Source: Parapedobacter tibetensis
Lineage (GTDB): Bacteria > Bacteroidota > Bacteroidia > Sphingobacteriales > Sphingobacteriaceae
Length of the DNA: 64,000 nt
NCBI RefSeq assembly: GCF_024704835.1
Contig: NZ_JAMXBE010000002.1
Coordinates: forward strand, 310,001-374,000
Reading direction: 5' to 3'
Shown here piece after piece: positions 48,960 through 62,078 of the stretch (positions within the stretch are counted from its first letter, which is position 1; each line of letters opens with the position of its first letter). The notes below the pieces were generated by a model. It ran no database searches. It worked only from the letters and a program-made list of their open reading frames with translations, and was not told the DNA's origin. The translations under genes were made by a program, and so were the position numbers.

Positions 48960-50438
48960 ATGAAGATAGCTAAACTATTCCTTTGCTTGATATCCTGCTA
49001 TATGCTAGGTGCATGTAGTAAATGGATCGATGTAAAGCCCACCGACCGACTTTCTGAAGAGCTCCTTTTCTCCGATCGGGACGGATTTCTGAAAGCCCTG
49101 AACGGTGTATATATAGAAATGGCCAACCGGTCACTATACGGACAGGAAATGTCCGCAGGAACTATCGATGTATTGGCGCAATATTACTATATTCCAGACT
49201 CCAGACATCGTTATCGTGAACACACAGTATTTGATTACCTCGACGATTTTCCAAAATCGACATTTGACAATGTCTGGAGCAAGGTCTATGAGCTCATCGC
49301 CAATTGCAATGTAATCCTTGAACATTGTGACGCAGCGCCAAGCGAATTCCTGCCAGCACCTTATTACGGCATTGTAAAAGGTGAAACGCTGGCACTCCGG
49401 GCCATGTTGCACCTGGATATGCTGCGCCTATTCGGCCCGATCTGGTCAGAAGCAAACAAATCGGTCATCAGCATCCCTTATGTTGCCCAAACCGGGTTCG
49501 AGGTTTCACCGCTTCTTTCGGCCGAGGAAATCATGCAACATATTATAGTAGACCTGACCATGGCCCTATCCTTGCTTGAAAGCACCGACCCGATCCGTAC
49601 CGAAGGCGTGCGGCATACCAATAACCCAACAGGATCTAACGAATTGTATTACCGGCAATACCGGCTCAACTACTACGCGGCCAAAGCCTTATTGGCGAGA
49701 ACTTACCTTTGGCAGGGAGACAAAGCTTCCGCGCTGGAACAGGCCGAAGCGCTACTGGCTGAAGTGCAGGTGCCCGGGGCGGAAATTTTCCCATTTGTGA
49801 CGTTTGCCGCAGCTACCCATGCCGAGCGTCCGGATCGTATGTTTTCCACCGAAGTCATGTTTGCATTGTATGATGTCAACCGGGTGAATATGTTCAACGC
49901 ACTGTTCGCAGCTGCCCTGAATCCCTTTCTTCGGCTTTCGTTCAACGGGGGCAACACCAATGAATCCCGCGTCATCGAGCTGTATGACGACGCCAACGAC
50001 TACCGCCGTCGTATCTGGCAAAACGTGACGTCGGGTACCGAGACTACACTAACCAACCTCAAATACCAGGATATTCCCGATGCGAATACGCCAGGCCGAT
50101 ACATGATTCCATTGATCCGGATTAGTGAAGTATTGTTGATCGCCGCCGAATGCAGCCCCACATTGCAGGAAGGCATAGCCTATCTTAATCAAGTACGTAC
50201 GAGCAGGAACTGCTTTGATGTCGTGCCTACGGATGACGCAACATTGAAAGCCGCCATCACACGGGAATTTCGTAAGGAGGTCATCGGTGAGGGACAGCAA
50301 TTCTATTATTTCAAGCGGAATGCCATGCAGGTGGTACCAAACAACGGGGCTCTGGTGGGCACCAAAACGATGGTCCTGAATAACTACGTTGTTCCGCTGC
50401 CAGACAGTGAAGTCTCCCAACGAAACGATTTGAATTAA
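48960..50438 (+). CDS. SusD/RagB-family nutrient-binding lipoprotein
   Basis: A 492-residue lipoprotein (lipobox SCYMLGAC) with WIDVKPTDRLSEELLFSDRD after the cysteine, a TPR-like part (KGETLALRAMLHLDMLRLFG) and the C-terminal LIRISEVLLIAAECSPTLQE then TREFRKEVIGEGQQFYYFKR. It follows the STN-type SusC by 29 bases. The partner genes (DUF4843, PKD-like, TlpA-like) are those found in many Bacteroidota loci of this class, for which no substrate is firmly known. Confidence 0.95.
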   Translation: MKIAKLFLCLISCYMLGACSKWIDVKPTDRLSEELLFSDRDGFLKALNGVYIEMANRSLYGQEMSAGTIDVLAQYYYIPDSRHRYREHTVFDYLDDFPKSTFDNVWSKVYELIANCNVILEHCDAAPSEFLPAPYYGIVKGETLALRAMLHLDMLRLFGPIWSEANKSVISIPYVAQTGFEVSPLLSAEEIMQHIIVDLTMALSLLESTDPIRTEGVRHTNNPTGSNELYYRQYRLNYYAAKALLARTYLWQGDKASALEQAEALLAEVQVPGAEIFPFVTFAAATHAERPDRMFSTEVMFALYDVNRVNMFNALFAAALNPFLRLSFNGGNTNESRVIELYDDANDYRRRIWQNVTSGTETTLTNLKYQDIPDANTPGRYMIPLIRISEVLLIAAECSPTLQEGIAYLNQVRTSRNCFDVVPTDDATLKAAITREFRKEVIGEGQQFYYFKRNAMQVVPNNGALVGTKTMVLNNYVVPLPDSEVSQRNDLN

Positions 50439-50462
50439 TCTGAAAGATAGTTAGCTACGAAT

Positions 50463-51317
50463 ATGAAAAAGATACTGTTTTATATCACCGCTATAACCGG
50501 GCTTTGCGCCAGCGCAGGTTGCGAAAAGGAACTGATGGAATATGAAGGCAACGAAGGCGTCTATTTTGCGGTCCAGCATGGTCAGGGCCATTTAAGCGAG
50601 AATTCGTGGCCTTACCAGCCTTATAGTAGGGTGGATTTTGTCCAGCTTGATCAGGACGAAGTCACTTTTCTGGTCAAGGTCATGATTACAGGCTCCGTCA
50701 AAGACTATGACCGGCCGTTTTTGGTAGCGGTCAACCCCGATTCGACCACTGCCATGTTGGGGGTACACTATGAAGCCCTGCCGGAAGAAGTGATTATTCC
50801 GGCTGGTGAAATCAGCGCCTCGGTGCCCGTCCGGTTAAAAAGGGCGGCGGATCTGGAGGAGAATGAGCACACGTTGGGTTTACGCTTGTTGCCCAACGAA
50901 CATTTCGGGCTTTCCTTTCCCGAGTGGGATGCGATTCCATCCTTGGAGGGTGGAGACGTCGTTCCGGAATTTGATGCAAGTTTACATACCTTGCGCATTA
51001 ATGACTTTATGGTTGAGCCAGGAGTATGGCCCGGTTCCATCCAGAATGGCAACCGGGAGTCGGGCCTATGGGGTGTATTCACGCGAAAAAAATTCGACCT
51101 TTTCGTTGAGCTGTTCGGTGTTACCTATGCCGATTTTGTAAACTCGGAAACCATGCCCATGGTTCGTATGATGGTGATGACTAATGAGGCGACGGCATAT
51201 TTGGTTGAGCGTTACAACGCAGGGGATCCGATGTTGGAAGATGACGGCCGACTGATGTGGCTTGGAAGCGTTCCTTGGGACTCCTATATTGGCGTTCCTT
51301 GGGTTCCAGGTTCTTAA
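50463..51317 (+). CDS. DUF4843-family lipoprotein
   Basis: The 284-residue lipoprotein (cysteine 20 in CASAGC) has the DUF4843 plan: YEGNEGVYFAVQ just after the anchor, a Calx-beta-like middle (RPFLVAVNPDSTTAMLGVHY, IIPAGEISASVPVRLKRAAD, LGLRLLPNEHFGL) and a conserved WGVFTRKKFDLFVE segment in the second half. It should sit on the outer membrane and bind ligand or support the SusC/SusD complex. The gene lies 24 bases after susD and 29 before the PKD-like gene. Confidence 0.85.
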   Translation: MKKILFYITAITGLCASAGCEKELMEYEGNEGVYFAVQHGQGHLSENSWPYQPYSRVDFVQLDQDEVTFLVKVMITGSVKDYDRPFLVAVNPDSTTAMLGVHYEALPEEVIIPAGEISASVPVRLKRAADLEENEHTLGLRLLPNEHFGLSFPEWDAIPSLEGGDVVPEFDASLHTLRINDFMVEPGVWPGSIQNGNRESGLWGVFTRKKFDLFVELFGVTYADFVNSETMPMVRMMVMTNEATAYLVERYNAGDPMLEDDGRLMWLGSVPWDSYIGVPWVPGS

Positions 51318-51346
51318 CATTCTTCCATTAACTTTAATACGTAAAA

Positions 51347-52894
51347 ATGACACGATATTTTTCTAGTTTTATCTTCGGGCTGTCTGCCCTACTGCTTACG
51401 GTTTCATGTAGCAAGGATCTGGGTAATTACGATTATCACGATATTAATGAGTTGGCCATCACGGGCGTTGAAAGTACGTATTCGGTGCTGACTGGTGTAG
51501 ATACCCTGCATATCGAACCGGAAATCGCAGCCACGGAAGCTGACCAGCCAGATGAGCGTTACGACTATTTCTGGATTTTGAGGGGAAGCAACCAGTTTGT
51601 AGACACGGTCGGTACCGAGCGGGCCCTGGACTACCCCATTGACCTTGCGCCCGAAACGTTTACCCTGCATTTCCGTACGGTAGATAAACAAACCGGTGTC
51701 GCCTGGTGGACCAATAGTGATTTGGTCGTCGGTACGCCTTACTCCCGTGGCCTGCTGCTCATTGGCGAAAACGAACAAGGGCAAGCCGAGGCAGAGATGA
51801 TCTCCATGGTGTCAGATACCCTGCACATACCGAATATCCTATCCAATAGCGGGCTCCCTGCATTAACTGATCCAGTAGGTTTTTTGCATACCGGGGGCTA
51901 TTATGTCAAAATGTGGGTATTGACGCGTTCGGGTTCTTACTACTTGGATCGCATGACGATGAAGAGTACACCTGCCAATCAGTTTGGCAGCTTGGTGTAC
52001 ACGACAGACCCTATCCAAACCGAAACCCTCGATCCCATTGTCATTGCGCCGCAGATTGGAAGCGAGGCGGGTGCCACCGGTCAAACTTGGATACGGGCAG
52101 TGCTTTGCAGCGACGGCAGTGTTTTTGTCAGCTATACGCTGCTTAATGGGGGGGATTTTTACCCCAACCCTATGAACCGTACCAGTGATGACCCCGATAG
52201 GTTGCTGAAGGCAGCACCCTACCTGCTGTATTCCATTGGCAGTTTGAATGCCGTGATGTGGTACGATAGCGAAAATGAACGATTTATGAACATCTCGAAT
52301 ATCGGGTTGAGTACGTCATCGACGGTACTCACCGACGGCGCTTCCGATCCCTTCCCTTGGAACCAAGCTGCGGCGGGAAGGATCTTGGTGTATGCCGAAA
52401 ACACGCGAAATACCGACGGCGGCTCCGTGAATGGCAATTCCTTTGCGATCACGAAGGATGGCAACAATCGACACTACATCTATAAATTCTATGCGAATGG
52501 AGCCAATCCGGCAAAACACGCGGCATACACCGTATTACCGATGGCGACCGATTTCGACAAGGCTGATTTTTATGCCTTCTCGTCCAACCGTACCGTGGTC
52601 TTCTATTCCGTTGGCAACAAGCTTTACGCCTACGACTATAACCCGGGCAATGAGCGGATCTATCCATATCCCACCATCGGTACGGATGAGATCACCATGC
52701 TGAAATTTGATACGCAGATAGACCACTTGACAAACTCCCTTTACATAGCGACATATGGTGCCGGTACCAAAGGTACTTTACGCCGGTTTATTGTGGGGTC
52801 AAATCCCAATGTAGTCGAATTGACGCCTGCTGAAAACGGTGAGTGGAACAACTTGATCAACGTAACAAACATGAGTTGGCGGGCGGCCAACTAA
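51347..52894 (+). CDS. PKD-like family lipoprotein
   Basis: A 515-residue lipoprotein (lipobox SALLLTVSC) starting with SKDLGNYDYHDINELAITGV, the standard N-terminus of the PKD-like family of SusC/SusD loci. Residues 40-125 form a PKD-like sandwich (YDYFWILRGSNQFVD, LHFRTVDKQTGVAWWTNSDL). The remaining 380 residues contain repeated strands and turns (RGLLLIGENEQGQAEAEMIS, AVMWYDSENERFMNISNIGL, KLYAYDYNPGNERIYPYPTI) that suggest a beta-propeller. A binding role at the cell surface is inferred. It lies between the DUF4843 and thioredoxin-like genes in one operon. Confidence 0.85.
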   Translation: MTRYFSSFIFGLSALLLTVSCSKDLGNYDYHDINELAITGVESTYSVLTGVDTLHIEPEIAATEADQPDERYDYFWILRGSNQFVDTVGTERALDYPIDLAPETFTLHFRTVDKQTGVAWWTNSDLVVGTPYSRGLLLIGENEQGQAEAEMISMVSDTLHIPNILSNSGLPALTDPVGFLHTGGYYVKMWVLTRSGSYYLDRMTMKSTPANQFGSLVYTTDPIQTETLDPIVIAPQIGSEAGATGQTWIRAVLCSDGSVFVSYTLLNGGDFYPNPMNRTSDDPDRLLKAAPYLLYSIGSLNAVMWYDSENERFMNISNIGLSTSSTVLTDGASDPFPWNQAAAGRILVYAENTRNTDGGSVNGNSFAITKDGNNRHYIYKFYANGANPAKHAAYTVLPMATDFDKADFYAFSSNRTVVFYSVGNKLYAYDYNPGNERIYPYPTIGTDEITMLKFDTQIDHLTNSLYIATYGAGTKGTLRRFIVGSNPNVVELTPAENGEWNNLINVTNMSWRAAN

Positions 52895-52929
52895 TTCAAT
52901 CCGTTCATTAAATAAATAGATACATACAT

Positions 52930-54018
52930 ATGATTATCAAAACACTTAAAATTGCCTTATCGGCATGTTGTATTGCGGTTGCATCGCAAGCCGCATCAGC
53001 ACAGGAAGGAACATTTGAAGTAACAGGAGCCATTCGCAATGTCGGCGTTGAGGGCGGTATGGTACTCCTTAGTTATTACGACGGGACCAAATTGCGATAC
53101 GATACCACACGGGTACGCAACGGTGCTTTCCGCATTTCGGGTACGGTGGCCCAGCCGGTCAAGTCGTTTCTGTACCTTGAATATCCCAAATCCGAAGGCG
53201 AGCGAAAAAAGGAAAAAGGTGGGCACCAAGAGTTTTTCTTGGAAAGTGGACGTACACGGATAAAAGGGAAGGACATCGTTTCAGCCAAGATAGTAGGAGG
53301 AAATGCACAAAAGGACTATACCAAATTGCAAAAAAAATTGCGCAAGATCGGCTGGCCCTGTGACGACGGGAACGATAAGGATTTGAAGGCGAAAAAAGAT
53401 GAAGTCGAATTCGCTTTTATGCTAGCACACCCCAACTCCCAAGTATCCTTCGGATTAATGAAGGAAATGGCTACTCCCAACTTTTTAGGTGAGCATCACG
53501 AAACGGTAGAAACCGTTTATAGCGGGCTCAGTGAAGCTTGGCGCAGGTCTGACGATGGTCAGAAAATCGCTCAGCGAATCGAGGCAGCAAAGAAGTTGGG
53601 TGTGGGCAAGCCAGCCATTGATTTCACAATGAATGATACATTGGGCAACCCCGTTAGCCTCTCGGATTTCCGGGGCCAATACGTGTTCTTGGATTTCTGG
53701 GCATCTTGGTGTGCGCCCTGTAGGGCGGAGAATCCGCATGTTGTGGCTGCCTATGAACAATTTAAGGATAAGAATTTTACCGTGCTAGGTGTTTCGTTGG
53801 ATAAAGCCGAAGACCGGCAGAAATGGTTGGGCGCAATCCATAAAGATGGACTGCCTTGGACACACGTGTCCGATCTGAACGGTTGGGACAATGCCGCAGC
53901 ACGCGCCTACGGTGTGCAATCCATCCCGATGAACTACCTGATTGATCCGGAAGGCAAGATTGTTGCGGTCTCCCTTCGCGGTAAGCAACTCATTCAGACC
54001 CTCTCCGAATTGCTGTAG
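52930..54018 (+). CDS. TlpA/ResA-like thioredoxin with DUF4369 domain
   Basis: The 362-residue protein has a signal peptide (residues 1-24, ending AASAQ). Residues 28-125 are a DUF4369-like beta domain (EVTGAIRNVGVEGGMVLLSY, AFRISGTVAQPVKSFLY). Residues 225-360 are a thioredoxin-like domain with FLDFWASWCAPCRAENPHVV (C261 and C264) and the cis-proline loop SIPMNYLIDPEGKIV. It should act as a disulfide reductase in the periplasm or outside. It is the last gene of the sigma/FecR-controlled operon, followed by a bidirectional hairpin. Confidence 0.93.
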   Translation: MIIKTLKIALSACCIAVASQAASAQEGTFEVTGAIRNVGVEGGMVLLSYYDGTKLRYDTTRVRNGAFRISGTVAQPVKSFLYLEYPKSEGERKKEKGGHQEFFLESGRTRIKGKDIVSAKIVGGNAQKDYTKLQKKLRKIGWPCDDGNDKDLKAKKDEVEFAFMLAHPNSQVSFGLMKEMATPNFLGEHHETVETVYSGLSEAWRRSDDGQKIAQRIEAAKKLGVGKPAIDFTMNDTLGNPVSLSDFRGQYVFLDFWASWCAPCRAENPHVVAAYEQFKDKNFTVLGVSLDKAEDRQKWLGAIHKDGLPWTHVSDLNGWDNAAARAYGVQSIPMNYLIDPEGKIVAVSLRGKQLIQTLSELL

Positions 54019-54469: not shown

Positions 54470-54625
54470 AATGAATTAAGTTTATATCGTAAATATAGCA
54501 ATAATGTGATAGTACTATAATGTATTTTAGGCATAAATTGTTTTCCTTTGTTTAGTGCGGGGTTAGCATTTAATCATATACTTAGCTTTTGCATTGACTA
54601 TAGGAATTGTTATCCAATACAAGCC

Positions 54626-55753
54626 ATGATTTCAGAACCCACCTATTTAGCGGCAAAGATGGTGTCGCATACCGTACGACAGCATTTTGAGCAGCAGCGA
54701 ACACTACTTGGGTATCCAAGTGACGATGGGGTTTATGTGCCTGACATACAAATAATCGAAGCTATTATTGATGCCGCGTTTTGGGCCAGCCTAAGACGCG
54801 AGGAAGGATATGAACCCAAAATATCCCTTGCCCTGCTACCACCCGAGCCAACGGAGCACAACCTCATCTTCCAAAGGCGTCAGCGGTTTACCCCCTACAA
54901 CCTTGTGAAATTGTCGCCAGCCGTTGTGCAACCCGGTATACACCTGGGCATATGGTTTGAAGACGACAACCTGCATATATGGGGTACGGCTCAAGATTTG
55001 CCTCCCTTATGCTTTGTGTTGGAAGTAGTGGAAGCCGGATTACTGGTGGTGAAACAGAAACAGAGCGACCAAGTGGGGAAGTTTATCAACGTCGCCGTCC
55101 TTAAAGGTGACCAAATTAAAATCATTGATGAAACCCAATGGGGGATGTCTGAGAGCCCAGACATGCTTTCGGCGTTGTTGGGCTTTCCGATTTCAGCCCG
55201 AGCGGACCGTTCGGCAAACGTATTGGTACAGCTTGCCATGGGCATGCGAAGCCATGGACGTGGTGCGCTGCTGCTGGTGGTGCCCCAAAACAGTTCGGCG
55301 TGGTTGCATTCTGTTGTGAAACCCATCAACTACTTGATCGATCCAGTCTTTTCGCTGGTTCCAAATGGGAATGGGGAAACCTCCAGCCACGCTCATACAG
55401 AAGCGCTCCATAAGGCCATCACAGCAGTAGGGGGCTATTCTGCCATTGATGGAGCCACTGTAATTACCAAAGACCACCAGTTGCTGGCCTTTGGGGCGAA
55501 GATAGCCCGATCACCTAATGCCTTGCCCGTGGAGAAAATCATGTTGACTGAACCCATTGCTGGCGGTGCGATCCAGCAGCTTGATGCCACCAATATCGGG
55601 GGAACCCGTCACTTGGCGGCGGCGCAGTTTGTGCACGATCAGCGCGATTCACTTGCGCTGGTAGCCTCTCAAGATGGCACCTTTACCGTATTTTCATGGT
55701 CTGAAAACCAGGAAATGGTACATGGTCACCGCATCGATACGTTGTTGATGTAG
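54626..55753 (+). CDS. DisA_N/DAC-like (DACNV-type) putative nucleotide sensor
   Basis: About 375 residues from the ATG at 54626 (MISEPTYLAAKMV); an earlier in-frame ATG at 54548 adds an unlikely 26 residues. The C-terminal third (residues 255-355) has the diadenylate cyclase motifs: YSAIDGATVITKDHQLLAFG (DGA at 275-277) and GTRHLAAAQFVHDQRDSLAL followed by SQDG. The cyclase RHR motif reads RHL here. Proteins of this kind have been described as DAC-derived sensor domains in nucleotide signalling (DACNV). The N-terminal 250 residues are mostly beta and have no motif I recognise. It has no signal peptide, so it is cytoplasmic. Enzyme activity is uncertain. Confidence 0.75.
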   Translation: MISEPTYLAAKMVSHTVRQHFEQQRTLLGYPSDDGVYVPDIQIIEAIIDAAFWASLRREEGYEPKISLALLPPEPTEHNLIFQRRQRFTPYNLVKLSPAVVQPGIHLGIWFEDDNLHIWGTAQDLPPLCFVLEVVEAGLLVVKQKQSDQVGKFINVAVLKGDQIKIIDETQWGMSESPDMLSALLGFPISARADRSANVLVQLAMGMRSHGRGALLLVVPQNSSAWLHSVVKPINYLIDPVFSLVPNGNGETSSHAHTEALHKAITAVGGYSAIDGATVITKDHQLLAFGAKIARSPNALPVEKIMLTEPIAGGAIQQLDATNIGGTRHLAAAQFVHDQRDSLALVASQDGTFTVFSWSENQEMVHGHRIDTLLM

Positions 55754-56141: not shown

Positions 56142-56990
56142 ATGGTGAGACTAACTGACTTGGTATTTGGCTATCGAAAACAACCATTGCTATTTGACGG
56201 GTTGAACCTGCGGTTGAATGTTGGGCATATTTACGGACTACTAGGCAAGAACGGAGCGGGGAAGACAACGCTGCTGAAAAACATGTTGGGGCTGGCCTAC
56301 CCGAAATCGGGTACATGCCGGATAAATGGCTTGGATGCGACGAAGCGGCTTCCGGCATGCTTGCGTCAGGTTTACCTGCTGCCCGAAGAGCCTTATATAC
56401 CTAATCACACGGCCAAACGGTTTGTTGGGTTAACGAGCCCGTTTTATCCGGACTTCAATGGGGAGGATTTTGAACGGTATCTGGATGAGTTTGATGTACC
56501 TGCTCGGCAGACGCTGACCAAACTATCGCTTGGCCAACAGAAGAAATTCATGATTGCTTTTGCGCTTGCTTGCCATACGCCGCTGCTGATCATGGACGAG
56601 CCGACCAATGGATTGGACATTCCTTCGAAGGCGCAATTCAGGAAAGTACTGGCTGGTGCGTTTGATGAAACACGGTGCATGGTGATTTCGACGCATCAGG
56701 TGCGGGATTTGGACAACCTTATTGATACGGTATTGATACTCCACGACCAGCAAATTTTACTCCACGCCAATTTGGATGAACTCACCGCCAATTTGCTGTT
56801 TACCACCATAAGTCCGGCGGAAGCGGATAGTGCGCTTTATTATGAAGAGACGTACAGCGGATGCCGGGCCATATTAGCCAATGCAATGCAGGTCGAAAGC
56901 AAACCTGATTTGGAATTATTGTTTAACGCAGTGATTAAGCGGAAAGCGGCGCTTTTTGATCATTTAACAACAAGTGAAGAAAATGGATAA
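56142..56990 (+). CDS. ABC transporter ATP-binding protein (first system)
   Basis: The 282-residue ATPase has Walker A GLLGKNGAGKTTL (K41), a Q-loop region, the signature LSLGQQKKFMIAF (128-140) and Walker B LLIMDEPTNGLD (D152, E153). The signature is LSLGQ in place of LSGGQ, common in exporters of the YtrB/BcrA type. The C-terminal 80 residues (ILLHANLDELTANLLFTTIS) are the usual regulatory extension. It should power the membrane protein encoded next, whose start overlaps its end. The gene opens the GntR-regulated operon. Confidence 0.93.
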   Translation: MVRLTDLVFGYRKQPLLFDGLNLRLNVGHIYGLLGKNGAGKTTLLKNMLGLAYPKSGTCRINGLDATKRLPACLRQVYLLPEEPYIPNHTAKRFVGLTSPFYPDFNGEDFERYLDEFDVPARQTLTKLSLGQQKKFMIAFALACHTPLLIMDEPTNGLDIPSKAQFRKVLAGAFDETRCMVISTHQVRDLDNLIDTVLILHDQQILLHANLDELTANLLFTTISPAEADSALYYEETYSGCRAILANAMQVESKPDLELLFNAVIKRKAALFDHLTTSEENG

Positions 56991-57801
56991 TGTATTTAGT
57001 TTGGAGCGCTTCGCGCTATTGATGCGGCGGCATTTTAGCTTGTATTTCCGGACGTATGTGATGGGTGCTTTGGTGCTTGCGGGGGGTACGGTGTTGTTGT
57101 TTTCATTGCTTGCATGGCTTGCCTCTGGCCGGAGTGGTGGAGTGTCGGCTGGGAATCAAATTACCGTTTATTTATTGGTGATGTATGGCGGGCTGATCCT
57201 TTTTACAGGTGCCGTATTGCAACCTTATCAACGGCCGCGCGAAGCCACGTTCAATCTGTTGCTTCCGGCATCCAAGTTTGAGAAGTACGCGTTGACTTGG
57301 CTGCTGTCGCTGGTCTTTTATTCCATATGCGCCAATGGCATTTATTTCATCGTCAGGTTTTTGATGGTGCAGTATTGGGAAGGGCAGGGTTTGGCGGCGG
57401 AATCGCTGTGGTCTTATGATCGGTTGTTGGTTAAATCCGCGACGGATTTCACACCGCTTCATATGTTCATAGTAGTTTATCTTTTGGTACACGCGTGTGG
57501 ATTGCTGGGGAGCATCGTTTTTCGGAAACATGCCGTACTCAAAACTGCCTTGGCGCTTTTCGTGCTTGTAATGCTTTATCGATATATAAATGCCTTATTG
57601 TTCAAGGCGTGGCATATGCCGAATGTGGAGGTGACCCAGCCCCCACTTTTGCCTTTTTTGCCTGCCTATATCCAACATCAGGGTATTTCCCAAGGCGTTG
57701 GGTTGGATTCAGGGCCTTATTGGGCGTTTGGTTTTTGTAGTGTTTTTATCGTATCGCTTTGGTTTGTGGCCTACCTCAAACTAAGGGAAAGGGAAGTTTG
57801 A
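56974..57801 (+). CDS. ABC-2-like transporter membrane subunit (first system)
   Basis: A 275-residue membrane protein with six predicted helices (YVMGALVLAGGTVLLFSLLA, VYLLVMYGGLILFTGAVL, ALTWLLSLVFYSICANGIYF, MFIVVYLLVHACGLLGSIVF, ALALFVLVMLYRYINALLF and a C-terminal pass). RPREATFNLLLPASKFEKYA is the cytoplasmic loop typical of permeases that pair with YtrB/BcrA-type ATPases. The start is a GTG at 56974 or an ATG at 56983; both overlap the upstream ATPase gene. The GntR gene begins one base after its stop. Confidence 0.85.
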   Translation: MKKMDNVFSLERFALLMRRHFSLYFRTYVMGALVLAGGTVLLFSLLAWLASGRSGGVSAGNQITVYLLVMYGGLILFTGAVLQPYQRPREATFNLLLPASKFEKYALTWLLSLVFYSICANGIYFIVRFLMVQYWEGQGLAAESLWSYDRLLVKSATDFTPLHMFIVVYLLVHACGLLGSIVFRKHAVLKTALALFVLVMLYRYINALLFKAWHMPNVEVTQPPLLPFLPAYIQHQGISQGVGLDSGPYWAFGFCSVFIVSLWFVAYLKLREREV

Positions 57802-57802
57802 T

Positions 57803-58189
57803 ATGGAATTTAAGGGTAACGAAGCGATATACCTGCAGATAGCCGATTATGTGAGTGAACGTATCCTATTGGGCAAATGGGCGATCAACGAGAAGATTCC
57901 TTCCGTGCGCGAATTGGCTGCGGATCTACAGGTAAACCCTAATACGGTGATGCGTACGTATGAACATCTGCAACAGGCAAGGATCATCTTCAATAAACGG
58001 GGAATCGGGTTTTTTGTAGCCGAACAGGCAAAGGAGGAAATCAACAAGCAGCAGCGCGAACGGTTTATGACGCGCGATCTGCCTGAATTTTTCCGCAATA
58101 TGTACCTGTTGGAGATATCATTGGAGGAAATAAAGGGAAAATATGAAACATACCTGCTAAACCATTACAAAGATGAAGACAAGCAATAA
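57803..58189 (+). CDS. GntR-family transcriptional regulator (YtrA type)
   Basis: A 128-residue protein consisting of a winged helix-turn-helix (residues 8-75: AIYLQIADYVSERILLGKWA, then RELAADLQVNPNTVMRTYEH) and a short helical tail with no large ligand domain, the YtrA subfamily plan. Such regulators repress the ABC operon in which they lie until an antimicrobial or envelope signal appears. The palindrome at 56114-56135 is the likely target, making the operon autoregulated. Its end overlaps the next gene by 17 bases. Confidence 0.93.
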   Translation: MEFKGNEAIYLQIADYVSERILLGKWAINEKIPSVRELAADLQVNPNTVMRTYEHLQQARIIFNKRGIGFFVAEQAKEEINKQQRERFMTRDLPEFFRNMYLLEISLEEIKGKYETYLLNHYKDEDKQ

Positions 58190-58916
58190 ATTGTTAATGG
58201 CACTGGGAATCGCGCTATTGGTGGCGACTATCGTAAATGCATGGGTTATCAAAGCCGAGTCGCGGAGAATAATAAATCAATCGGTCATGTTGGAAACTTT
58301 TCCGATTGACTCCATCACGGAGGTGGTTATCACCGGGACTGCGCCAAAGTGGGAGCGCTTGCAGGTGCAGATATCACACAGCGATAAAACCACTGTACAG
58401 CATACCCAACACGACTTTATCCATATCTCCAAAGATGGGAATAAACTAAACATAGCCATCGACCATCCGAAAGACTATGAATATAAGGTAATTGCCCCGC
58501 CCGAAGTGATGATCCATTGTCCACGGTTGACCCGGTTTTCTATGGTGGGTACGCCGTTGGATAGCCTGGATTTGCCTGAAGATACGCACATCATGACACG
58601 GCGGAATTACGCCCGAAGTGTAGTAAAGCTGAGTGGGTTGCGCGGAGACCGATTGGAATTGTTTGTTTCAAATGGCGCGGAACTGACGCTGACCGACACA
58701 AACGTTGACTCGCTACATGCAGCGGCTGGTGCGTTTGGTAAATTGATTATCGATGGCAATACAGCTGACTACGCCTATTTGCGAGCTGGGAAGGATGGGG
58801 AAATTGAAGCAACGAACCCCAAAGCGAACATCCTCCGTACACATATTGACCCAGAGGGCGAGCTGATCATGAAAATGAAAGGAACGGATGCGACGATAAA
58901 ACGGGACACACTTTGA
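58173..58916 (+). CDS. Membrane-anchored beta-helix-like hypothetical protein
   Basis: The 247-residue protein has one N-terminal helix (residues 7-24) as signal anchor; the rest should be periplasmic. The pattern of short repeating strands (VVKLSGLRGDRLELFVSNGA, ELTLTDTNVDSLHAAAGAFG, KLIIDGNTADYAYLRAGKDG) resembles the GIN/DUF2807-type head-like beta-helix. No enzyme motif is visible. It is translationally coupled to the GntR gene (17-base overlap) and comes 27 bases before the second ATPase, so it probably serves the transporter, for example as an envelope sensor or accessory protein. This role is an inference. Confidence 0.7.
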   Translation: MKTSNKLLMALGIALLVATIVNAWVIKAESRRIINQSVMLETFPIDSITEVVITGTAPKWERLQVQISHSDKTTVQHTQHDFIHISKDGNKLNIAIDHPKDYEYKVIAPPEVMIHCPRLTRFSMVGTPLDSLDLPEDTHIMTRRNYARSVVKLSGLRGDRLELFVSNGAELTLTDTNVDSLHAAAGAFGKLIIDGNTADYAYLRAGKDGEIEATNPKANILRTHIDPEGELIMKMKGTDATIKRDTL

Positions 58917-58943: not shown

Positions 58944-59858
58944 ATGACGAATATTATAGAAACCGAAGCGTTGAGTTTCCGATACGGGAAAGGCAAGCAC
59001 GTACTGGATCATGTCTCCTTGCATATTCCGCGGGGAGCAATATATGGTTTCCTCGGGCCAAACGGCGCGGGCAAATCGACAACCATGCGCCTGCTTACGG
59101 GCATTATTCCGGAACAGGGGGATGCCATCCGGTTATTTGGTGCGCCATTGCGAGGGCAAATGCCTAGCGTTTTTGCCAGGATCGGTTCGCTGGTGGAACA
59201 GCCAGCATTGTATTTACATTTAAGCGGCATCAATAATCTCCGGTATATCGCCAGGCTGCGGGGTATTGCTGAAGATAAGATTCTACCGGCGTTGGAGTTG
59301 GTCAGACTGGCCCAAGACGGTAAGCGCAAAGTGAGACAATATTCGTTGGGTATGAAACAACGACTGGCCATTGCGATGGCATTGTTGGACGAGCCGGAGT
59401 TGCTCCTGTTGGACGAACCTGTAAACGGGTTGGATCCCAATGGTATGCAGGAAATCCGCCAACTGCTTATCCGGCTCAACAAAGAAAAAGGGGTAAGTAT
59501 ATTTGTATCCAGTCACCTGCTCGCCGAAATCGAAAAAATGTGTACCCATATCGGGATTATCCATGAAGGGAAGCTGCGTTTTGAAGGGCGCATGGATGAA
59601 TTATCTACTACATTTGGCGTAACCACATTGAAGGTAACGTTGGCGGATGCGGACCGTTGGGCGGAAAAGTTGCGGGAAGTTTATCCCCACATGGTGGTGG
59701 AAAACAATCAGCAACTCAGTATTGGCGTATCGGGCAGGGAAGCCATTCCTGCCGTGGTGCGTGATTTGGCAGATCGGGGTGCTGAGGTATATGAAGTACG
59801 CATAGCTGGTGGATTGGAAGATTGGTTTATGTCTTTGGTGGAAACTAATAATCGATGA
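58944..59858 (+). CDS. ABC transporter ATP-binding protein (second system, BcrA-like)
   Basis: The 304-residue ATPase has Walker A GFLGPNGAGKSTTMRL, the signature YSLGMKQRLAIAMALL, Walker B LLLLDEPVNGLDPNGM and the H-loop VSSHLLAEIEKM. The order and the C-terminal extension (about residues 215-304) are those of BcrA/lantibiotic-immunity type ATPases. Its partner is the permease-thioredoxin fusion starting 3 bases after its stop. Both likely move a peptide or lipid-linked compound across the inner membrane. Confidence 0.94.
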   Translation: MTNIIETEALSFRYGKGKHVLDHVSLHIPRGAIYGFLGPNGAGKSTTMRLLTGIIPEQGDAIRLFGAPLRGQMPSVFARIGSLVEQPALYLHLSGINNLRYIARLRGIAEDKILPALELVRLAQDGKRKVRQYSLGMKQRLAIAMALLDEPELLLLDEPVNGLDPNGMQEIRQLLIRLNKEKGVSIFVSSHLLAEIEKMCTHIGIIHEGKLRFEGRMDELSTTFGVTTLKVTLADADRWAEKLREVYPHMVVENNQQLSIGVSGREAIPAVVRDLADRGAEVYEVRIAGGLEDWFMSLVETNNR

Positions 59859-59861
59859 CCC

Positions 59862-62078
59862 ATGACTAAGTTTGTCTTTAAGGATTATGCGACTGCGCTC
59901 CGGGCAGAGCATATCAAGAAAAAAGGAACGGGTATTTATGCGCTCAGTGCTGTTGTTGGTGCATTGTTTCCATTCATCATGTTGGTTGTTGCACTTTTCC
60001 GCAATGCAGAACAGACGCAGCCGTTTGACTATTCCTATTATTTGTTTTTTATCCAGGAATCGGCCATTCCGCTGACCAATTTTTTTCTGCCGTTGTTGAT
60101 CATTGTGATGGCGAGCCGGATTGCCCAACTGGACCACCGGAACGGGGGGTGGCAACTGATGGAGACCCAACCTGTACATAAGTTTGCTATTTACTTCTCG
60201 AAGTTTACCGTAGTGCTGATCAGCGTTGCTGTTGCTTTGCTTTCGCTTATCTTATCCGGGTTGTTGATTGGTTGGGTGCTTACCCTTTTTACGACAATCC
60301 CGGAAACGGCTCAATTTTATATTCCATATTGGAAACTGATTCAGCTAGCGGTACGGATTTTTTGCTGCTGTGTTTACATCGCGGCGCTCCAGTATGTGAT
60401 TGCGGTATTGGTGCCAAGTTTCATCTGGTCCATCATCATCGGATTTGCCGGATTGCTGGCCGGGGTTTTCGTCAAACCTTTCGGGTATGATTTTGATTGG
60501 TATCCCTATCACATCCTTCCACGTATTACCACCTTCAGGGATGGGAGCGATTTTGGGTACTGGTTTACCTATACCGATGTGGTGAGTGTGGTGATTACGG
60601 TGGCCTTCCTGTACATTGGTTTCCAGTGGTATCGGCACCGTACATGGAAACTGGCTTTCCTGCAGAAGGGGACACGGCTCTGGTCATTGGTCGCAGTCTT
60701 AGCGATAACCGGTGGCGCAGTTGGTTATCTGTTGGCCCCGAAAGTGATGAAACCCTATCATACCTCGGTCATAGCCGGAAAGGTCGATACCGAATTTCCA
60801 CTTCAGCAGATTTACATAGTGAACCATACTATACAAGATACCCTGGCAGTCATTCCGGTTCATAACAATACGTTTCATTATGTGTTTGATAAACAATTGG
60901 TGACGGATTACTATGCTGTCGAATTTGACCATTTTTTTCGAACAAATCTATATTTCGGTTCCCTTGATAGTATATTCATCGCCGCGAAAGCAAACGAGAA
61001 CGCAACTGAGTTTAAGATTACGGGAACGCGACTCGCTGAAAACCGGGCTCCGGGTTTGCAACAATCGTGGTCTATGGTTAGTTATTATTTACAGAATAAC
61101 CTGCATTTGGATAATCCGCAGTTTTTCGGCAAAGAAATATATAAAGACTGGCAGAAGAAAGTCAAGGAGCGAAAGGTATTCAAAACCGTGGACGGTTACA
61201 CATCAAGGGCAGATTTTGATGGGCGGATAACGAAGATGCTTGCTGTCCGATACCTCAATTATTGGAATGAGTATGAAAAGAAAAGAGTGGCCGTCTATCC
61301 GGATGAAACAACTGCCGTCTCCCCGGAAATCCAGCAGATAAAAGACCAAGTTTCGCTATCAGATGAAAGCCTGTTGGCCCATGAACCTTATCTGGATTAC
61401 GTCATTTACGCCATTTCGGCATCTAACAAGTCGGATATCGCTGAAGATACCAAGGCCCTGATGGGCATCACCCAACTTCCTGATGGGCTGTTCAAAGACA
61501 AATTGCTTTTTTGGCAAATCAACAAGAGCCTCAATGATGCGGCAGACAGTAGGGAGCGGGCAGCCATTGTTGAACAGTATGCCATGGTATTTTCGGATCA
61601 TAAATATAAAGATAAGGCAATCCACATTTACGAGCTTCTGCAAAGTTTGGGTAGGGGTGAACCCGCTCCCGGACTTAATGCGGTAGATTTGCAGGGGAAT
61701 ACGGTTAGTTTGGCCGACCTGAAAGGCAAATATGTAGCCGTGGATGTATGGGCTACGTGGTGCGGGCCTTGTAAATATCAATCGCCATATTTTGAAAAAC
61801 TAGCTATCAAATATCACGACCAACCTATTTCTTTTCTTGCCATTAGTATCGATAACGATAAAAGTAAATGGGTTGTTGAGGCCAAGAATAAATCCAAGTC
61901 TGTGATGCAATGGCATATGTCTGACATGGAATCCTTTGGCCGCGATTTTAATATATCGAGTATACCTCATTTTATATTTCTTGATCCGGAAGGCAAATTT
62001 GTTCATTCAAAGATGTCCTTTCCCTCGGAAAATGCTTTTGAGATTATCTTGCGTAAGGAGTTGGGGTTGCCGGATTAA
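59862..62078 (+). CDS. ABC-2-type permease fused to a periplasmic TlpA-like thioredoxin domain
   Basis: The 738-residue protein joins two functions. Residues 1-292 carry about six hydrophobic helices with the permease loop LDHRNGGWQLMETQPVHKFA (90-109), as in BcrB-like permeases. After the last helix (274-292) a large domain, presumably periplasmic, follows: a DUF4369-like beta part (305-390), a helical linker (395-595) and a thioredoxin domain (600-738) with VAVDVWATWCGPCKYQSPYF (C634, C637) and cis-proline loop ISSIPHFIFLDPEGK. The DUF4369-linker-thioredoxin order equals that of separate TlpA-like proteins such as the one at 52930. No frameshift or stop lies at the junction, so this is one gene. 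It ends the GntR-controlled operon. Confidence 0.88.
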   Translation: MTKFVFKDYATALRAEHIKKKGTGIYALSAVVGALFPFIMLVVALFRNAEQTQPFDYSYYLFFIQESAIPLTNFFLPLLIIVMASRIAQLDHRNGGWQLMETQPVHKFAIYFSKFTVVLISVAVALLSLILSGLLIGWVLTLFTTIPETAQFYIPYWKLIQLAVRIFCCCVYIAALQYVIAVLVPSFIWSIIIGFAGLLAGVFVKPFGYDFDWYPYHILPRITTFRDGSDFGYWFTYTDVVSVVITVAFLYIGFQWYRHRTWKLAFLQKGTRLWSLVAVLAITGGAVGYLLAPKVMKPYHTSVIAGKVDTEFPLQQIYIVNHTIQDTLAVIPVHNNTFHYVFDKQLVTDYYAVEFDHFFRTNLYFGSLDSIFIAAKANENATEFKITGTRLAENRAPGLQQSWSMVSYYLQNNLHLDNPQFFGKEIYKDWQKKVKERKVFKTVDGYTSRADFDGRITKMLAVRYLNYWNEYEKKRVAVYPDETTAVSPEIQQIKDQVSLSDESLLAHEPYLDYVIYAISASNKSDIAEDTKALMGITQLPDGLFKDKLLFWQINKSLNDAADSRERAAIVEQYAMVFSDHKYKDKAIHIYELLQSLGRGEPAPGLNAVDLQGNTVSLADLKGKYVAVDVWATWCGPCKYQSPYFEKLAIKYHDQPISFLAISIDNDKSKWVVEAKNKSKSVMQWHMSDMESFGRDFNISSIPHFIFLDPEGKFVHSKMSFPSENAFEIILRKELGLPD

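Follow-up and report, generated by a model that had tools for sequence, protein, structure and literature searches.

Does one gene of Parapedobacter tibetensis encode both the membrane part of an ABC transporter and a thiol-disulfide oxidoreductase, and what might the two do in a single chain? The initial annotation of the 64,000-nucleotide stretch analysed here (the window) had described an uninterrupted frame joining a permease to a periplasmic thioredoxin domain of the TlpA type, two kinds of proteins that are normally separate. We found a single open frame on the forward strand, starting with ATG and encoding 738 aa, with the following parts:

59862-62078, + strand: permease-thioredoxin fusion (open frame, Pfam, 27 full-length homologues)
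59862-60641, + strand: six-helix ABC-2 permease of the BcrB/MutG type, residues 1-260 (PF12730, hydrophobic peaks, positive-inside pattern)
60675-60737, + strand: predicted seventh membrane helix, residues 272-292 (hydropathy peak, K/R count, low-confidence model)
60756-61631, + strand: eight-strand beta domain and helical linker of long-form TlpA proteins, residues 299-590 (hhalign, model)
61650-62075, + strand: thioredoxin-fold (TlpA/ResA-type) domain, residues 597-738 (PF08534, PDB neighbours, fold match)

Both ends of the protein were matched by Pfam profiles above their gathering cut-offs: ABC2_membrane_4 (PF12730) at residues 13-199 (51.9 bits, cut-off 27), Redoxin (PF08534) at residues 599-717 (59.6 bits, cut-off 26.6), and AhpC-TSA over the same C-terminal region (50.9 bits, gathering score 26). 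The region between them had been described as a DUF4369-like beta part followed by a helical linker. The Pfam DUF4369 profile did not match the fusion protein, but both elements were recovered by other means: residues 299-590 alone matched the N-terminal half of Bacteroidota TlpA-family proteins of approximately 470 aa (hhalign probability 97.6%), and a model of residues 296-738 (pLDDT 75.4) comprises a beta domain of eight strands, then a helical stretch, then a thioredoxin fold. Residues 299-738 aligned with long Bacteroidota TlpA-family proteins over 428 columns (hhalign 100%), hence the whole mature TlpA-type protein is present. In the product of the gene at 59862-62078, an ABC-2 (BcrB/LanG-like) permease continues into a complete TlpA-family thiol-disulfide oxidoreductase of the long form.

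The same frame is found in other genomes. The search for proteins with both parts joined, set beforehand as a test that could refute the annotation, returned 27 full-length homologues besides the window protein, encoded in joined frames of about 732-765 aa without a stop. They come from two Parapedobacter species (P. lycopersici and P. composti), 22 genomes of a single genus (g51), and three further genera of the family of g51 (f26). Given the more than 200 genera in this family and the hundreds of species in its largest genus, f26 is probably Flavobacteriaceae and g51 Flavobacterium; we dropped Chryseobacterium as the identity of g51, because a family with approximately 228 genera better suits Flavobacteriaceae. 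A sequencing or frame error is excluded by the recurrence of this joined frame in 27 more genomes, and we give a negligible probability to any artefact (frameshift, mis-assembly, or chance joining of neighbouring genes) when 28 genomes have this frame in differing surroundings. Neither does the joint correspond to a common gene pair that was misread, since none of 43 loci encoding stand-alone permeases had a TlpA gene nearby (in fetched flanks of approximately 1.5 kb where the contig allows). These flanks also lacked candidate intermediates between operon and fusion, i.e., permease and TlpA genes side by side.

The fusion is present in three of the nine Parapedobacter species and in 22 of the 249 g51 genomes, where the open frame of 737-760 aa covers permease and linker. 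In a sample of 400 genomes of the family of P. tibetensis, full-length proteins occurred only in the three Parapedobacter, and the other matches were stand-alone permeases of approximately 250-300 aa; a strong stand-alone thioredoxin match of 185 aa in this family (G023) had no adjoining permease. A sample of the phylum gave one full-length homologue outside the family (G747, in f26), and a survey of approximately 228 genera of f26 gave three genera with the fusion besides g51. We found no match among 72,556 plasmid records and only two distant thioredoxin matches in the viral collection. This patchy occurrence, with differing flanks, resembles that of accessory defence genes. The claim of a rare joined architecture was therefore well founded, as homologues, profile comparison, topology and model all back it. 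The permease-TlpA fusion is a conserved protein family in Bacteroidota with a constant ATPase partner (see below). The architecture is undescribed in the literature that we searched for the fusion, its families and precedents (with most subscription papers and database-only annotation outside the scope), so the family is apparently an undescribed join of two known halves.

The thioredoxin domain had been described as having a WCGPC motif and a cis-proline loop. Both are present, together with a thioredoxin-type Asp:

61743-61745, + strand: D628, the buried-Asp position of thioredoxins in D-x-W-x-x-W-C-x-P-C (D in 25/25 aligned proteins)
61761-61772, + strand: C634-G-P-C637 active-site motif (both Cys and Pro in 25/25)
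61965-61967, + strand: P702, cis-proline of the thioredoxin fold, preceded by I701 (P in 25/25, I in 24/25)

Among the 25 aligned proteins, which diverge down to 26% identity, D628, W630, W633, C634, P636, C637, P702 and F704 are invariant, the active site is mostly CGPC, and no other cysteine is conserved. All 28 fusions, including three homologues beyond the alignment, have a CxxC near the C-terminus. Conservation is also highest in the thioredoxin part, whose mean identity to the window protein is 0.49 (permease 0.42, linker 0.36). The invariance of the CxxC, the cis-proline and the thioredoxin-type Asp, together with this high conservation, indicates that the redox site is under selection. 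The sequences in the PDB nearest to the domain are 2lja and 4k9z. Its modelled fold matches 4ka0 (Z 18.5, rmsd 2.1 over 140 residues), and part of the modelled helical stretch also matches 4yod (Z 16.2, 201 residues, rmsd 3.7). The module is neither ResA nor TlpA proper, since it missed the NCBIfam cut-offs for ResA (66.7 bits, cut-off 170) and for rhizobial TlpA (52 bits, cut-off 230). The glutamate found in ResA three residues after the CxxC is absent as a rule (position 640 is Q in 20, E in four and L in one of the 25 proteins). In enzymes of the thioredoxin fold, a buried Asp and an Ile before the cis-proline are a hint of reductase activity. The D-x-W-x-x-W-C-x-P-C and Ile-cisPro signatures thus suggest a module working in the reductive direction. 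Yet this direction is not safe: the related stand-alone thioredoxin FetE, whose gene accompanies those of an ABC transporter, was considered a likely oxidase in vivo (PMC10783030).

The placement of the thioredoxin domain depends on the number of membrane helices. The initial annotation counted six, but the average hydropathy of 25 homologues has seven peaks, at residues 37, 76, 127, 175, 195, 244 and 282. Loops rich in K/R (residues 1-24, 86-108 and 257-272) fall on one side of the membrane, and K/R-poor loops (50-69 and 136-160) on the opposite side. The last peak averages 2.14, with 4.6 K/R within residues 257-272 in the same 25 proteins, and a helix at 272-291 appears in a full-chain model of low confidence (built from three sequences, pLDDT 45.9, too poor for use). 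With K/R-rich and K/R-poor loops on alternating sides, the chain beyond residue 292 is predicted to be periplasmic; a seventh helix is needed for the C-terminal part to lie outside. The seven helices with positive-inside loops hence predict a periplasmic thioredoxin domain, as had been proposed. The putative helix 7 lies where stand-alone TlpA proteins have their signal sequence. Long-form Bacteroidota TlpA proteins (about 450-480 aa; thioredoxin domains 2lja, 4k9z/4ka0 and 4grf) share with the fusion an alignment over their whole length, the CxxC, the cis-proline and the fold, but they start with an N-terminal signal sequence where the fusion has the six-helix permease and the seventh helix, and they lack its accompanying ABC ATPase gene.

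This ATPase is encoded immediately upstream:

58944-59858, + strand: ABC transporter ATPase, 304 aa, constant partner of the fusion (PF00005, 98 bits)

Its gene stops 3 nt before the start of the fusion. An ATPase gene lies directly upstream in 28 of 28 fusion loci, at distances that range, by ORF call, from about -38 to +30 nt. BcrAB/LanFEG-type transporters also have a PF12730 permease and a separate ATPase encoded directly upstream, and the best named NCBIfam models belong to these systems, although both scored under their cut-offs: TIGR03740 (lantibiotic-protection ATPase) for the ATPase, at 232.1 bits (cut-off 309.75), and TIGR03733 for the permease part, at 34.9 bits (cut-off 117.2). These transporters lack helix 7 and the 440-residue periplasmic redox module that the fusion adds at the C-terminus. 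LanFEG has a LanE/LanG permease pair and linked lantibiotic genes, whereas the fusion loci have one permease gene, with no second one beside the ATPase-fusion pair, and no peptide gene seen.

The constancy of the ATPase bears on the possibility that the permease is a mere anchor or partner, and that the thioredoxin maintains another envelope protein with its cysteines reduced or properly paired, so that the targets of transport and redox chemistry differ. TlpA-type proteins are numerous (the P. tibetensis genome has 42 matches to the fusion, nearly all via the thioredoxin part) and mostly work without a transporter. Moreover, the fusion contains a long TlpA protein in its entirety, with beta domain and linker, as if transferred unaltered. 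Yet the ATPase and the permease residues are kept in every lineage, when an anchor alone needs neither, and a single helix or a lipid anchors such domains elsewhere. We regard this explanation as unlikely.

The phylogenies concern the history of the pair. When the permeases of the fusions were placed in a tree together with 43 stand-alone ones, they formed one side of a single branch (support 100/99). The fusion set is also on one branch of the thioredoxin tree (support 99), and the partner ATPases separate from those of stand-alone permeases (SH-aLRT 99). The permease and TlpA-part trees have 14 of 22 splits in common, with one marginal conflict (supports 90 and 92). The permease, thioredoxin and ATPase trees agree on one origin, and the simplest account would be a single fusion event, after which the ATPase and the fusion descended together. 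The three Parapedobacter permeases are placed inside a group of 20 members (100/98), the remainder of which are all from g51, and this nesting suggests transfer between families, in a direction that rests on sampling. A stand-alone BcrB-like permease gene may thus have been joined once to a TlpA-family gene, with the signal sequence becoming helix 7, and the ATPase-fusion pair would then have been retained and passed among lineages as a cassette.

Four genes precede the pair on the same strand in the window:

56142-58916, + strand: probable shared operon with the pair, encoding an ABC ATPase (56142), a membrane protein (56974), a GntR/YtrA-type regulator (57803) and a 247-aa protein without Pfam match (58173)

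This block probably forms an operon with the fusion pair in this genome. It is not constant beside the fusion: P. composti (L146) has the same block before the pair (the GntR/YtrA-type regulator was not called as an ORF), and it is absent in P. lycopersici and in other lineages. The block exists also without the fusion. One Parapedobacter (G006) has it followed by an ATPase and a plain PF12730 permease of 258 aa, and another (G004) has it without any ATPase-permease pair. The P. tibetensis genome itself encodes a paralogous plain pair (C23), with an ATPase 53% identical. These arrangements indicate that the fusion occupies a slot otherwise held by an ordinary ATPase-permease pair.

Farther upstream, the window encodes at 48960-54018 (+ strand), approximately 6 kb from the fusion, a SusD-like lipoprotein, two more lipoprotein-like proteins and a stand-alone TlpA; the latter (52930-54018, + strand) is an ordinary TlpA protein and carries DUF4369. 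Next to them, a 401-aa protein with a DACNV sensor domain (54548-55753, + strand; PF21751, 108 bits) has a homologue in the same place in P. composti; its match to the DisA/DAC diadenylate cyclase family is weak (16.7 bits, below cut-off).

Neighbours of the pair vary by lineage, and include yaaA-like and LuxR/DUF4199 genes, an mnmE-like gene, an MFS gene with BlaI/M56-like genes downstream, and a TonB-type outer-membrane protein, among others (several names come from reading the sequences, without family search). Five loci (L145, L158, L160, L162 and L163) encode closely downstream of the fusion a small membrane protein of approximately 158 aa with a LuxR-type HTH and a DUF4199 membrane protein. 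In four divergent g51 loci (L168-L171) the pair is preceded, at approximately 85 bp and in the same orientation, by a gene for an 802-aa TonB-type outer-membrane beta-barrel protein, and a functional link of these four to uptake across the outer membrane is possible. No bacteriocin, lantibiotic or other linked peptide gene was seen at the fusion loci, where gaps are mostly too short for one. With most flanks differing between lineages and no peptide gene seen alongside, the ATPase and the fusion together resemble an accessory cassette that is complete in itself.

These surroundings weigh against a role in the export of a peptide or protein containing cysteines, on which the thioredoxin would form or shuffle disulfides as it emerges. 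We consider such a role very unlikely. Flanks vary among lineages with little space for a peptide gene, the active site resembles that of a reductase (mostly CGPC, with Asp628 and an Ile ahead of the cis-proline), and BcrB-type pumps are usually protective and without peptidase domain. The geometry of the fusion would nevertheless suit it, and separate oxidoreductases such as BdbA (sublancin), BlpGst (thermophilin 13) and probably PedC (pediocin) offer parallels. Thiol-disulfide oxidoreductases are known in bacteriocin production: PedC is encoded in the pediocin operon beside the ABC transporter gene (PedD), and PedC and BdbA are thioredoxin-fold enzymes serving exported peptides (PMC4919988). 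They are, however, separate disulfide-forming proteins tied to a peptide gene, in contrast to the single chain studied here, and PedD, which cleaves signal peptides, belongs to another kind of ABC exporter.

The TonB-type receptor, as direct upstream neighbour in four loci, would suit another role, in which the ABC part exports a small thiol (e.g., cysteine) that recharges or assists the thioredoxin, providing periplasmic reducing power for, e.g., metal or haem handling. To our knowledge, however, BcrB/LanG-type ABC-2 permeases are not known as exporters of small thiols, and the genome has two DsbD homologues for the same task. The closest parallel is the FetBCD and FetE/FetF cluster of Campylobacter jejuni, where an ABC transporter and membrane-associated thioredoxins act in one gene cluster and FetBCD was proposed by the authors to supply reducing power for FetE/FetF (PMC10783030). 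The fusion thioredoxin domain matches the fold of FetE (8t4c, Z 16.2), but the likeness seen here is one of cluster make-up and of this fold. Furthermore, the Fet proteins are separate and belong to a cluster for iron-limited growth with FetM/FetP, which were not seen at the fusion loci. We judge this role improbable.

We tentatively favour, at somewhat less than even chances, a role in envelope protection, in which a membrane-active and possibly disulfide-bonded compound is extracted while disulfides are reduced locally; both the substrate and the redox direction are here our inference. The locus would encode a two-gene ABC transporter of a BcrA/LanF-like ATPase and a permease that is most likely homodimeric, because a single permease gene is present. 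With each permease ending in helix 7 and a periplasmic long-form TlpA module, every transporter would carry two thioredoxin modules. Like protection pumps of the BcrAB/LanFEG type, the transporter might pick up a membrane-active or envelope-damaging compound at the inner membrane, either in its outer leaflet or at its periplasmic face. The tethered domain, presumably recharged by DsbD-type membrane reductases, might reduce disulfides of the substrate or of a nearby client, leading to its unfolding or inactivation. This role is consistent with the nearest named models being those of lantibiotic protection (TIGR03740 and TIGR03733), with the GntR/YtrA-type regulator upstream in the window, with the plain pair in the same slot of G006, and with the two DsbD homologues as possible electron source. 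Against it count the scores of these models, below cut-off, the little room for a linked peptide gene at most loci, and the TonB-type neighbour of the four divergent loci, which also fits uptake. The initial annotation had suggested that transport is coupled to thiol-disulfide chemistry, with a peptide containing cysteines or a protein of the envelope as its target, and these sequence data are compatible with that idea. Its stricter version, in which the transport cycle is itself coupled to periplasmic thiol-disulfide exchange, with two tethered modules reducing the disulfides of the substrate, once captured, at the pathway mouth and so clearing a folded disulfide-bonded peptide from the membrane, is possible but doubtful.

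A permease and an oxidoreductase kept in one chain, with an intact active site through divergence to about 26% identity, argue that transport and disulfide chemistry share a target or a place. TlpA-type proteins are abundant in Bacteroidota and mostly without assigned role, and the fusion ties one of them to a recognisable kind of transporter. It offers a concrete system in which a mutant of the CxxC can be compared with a mutant of the ATPase.
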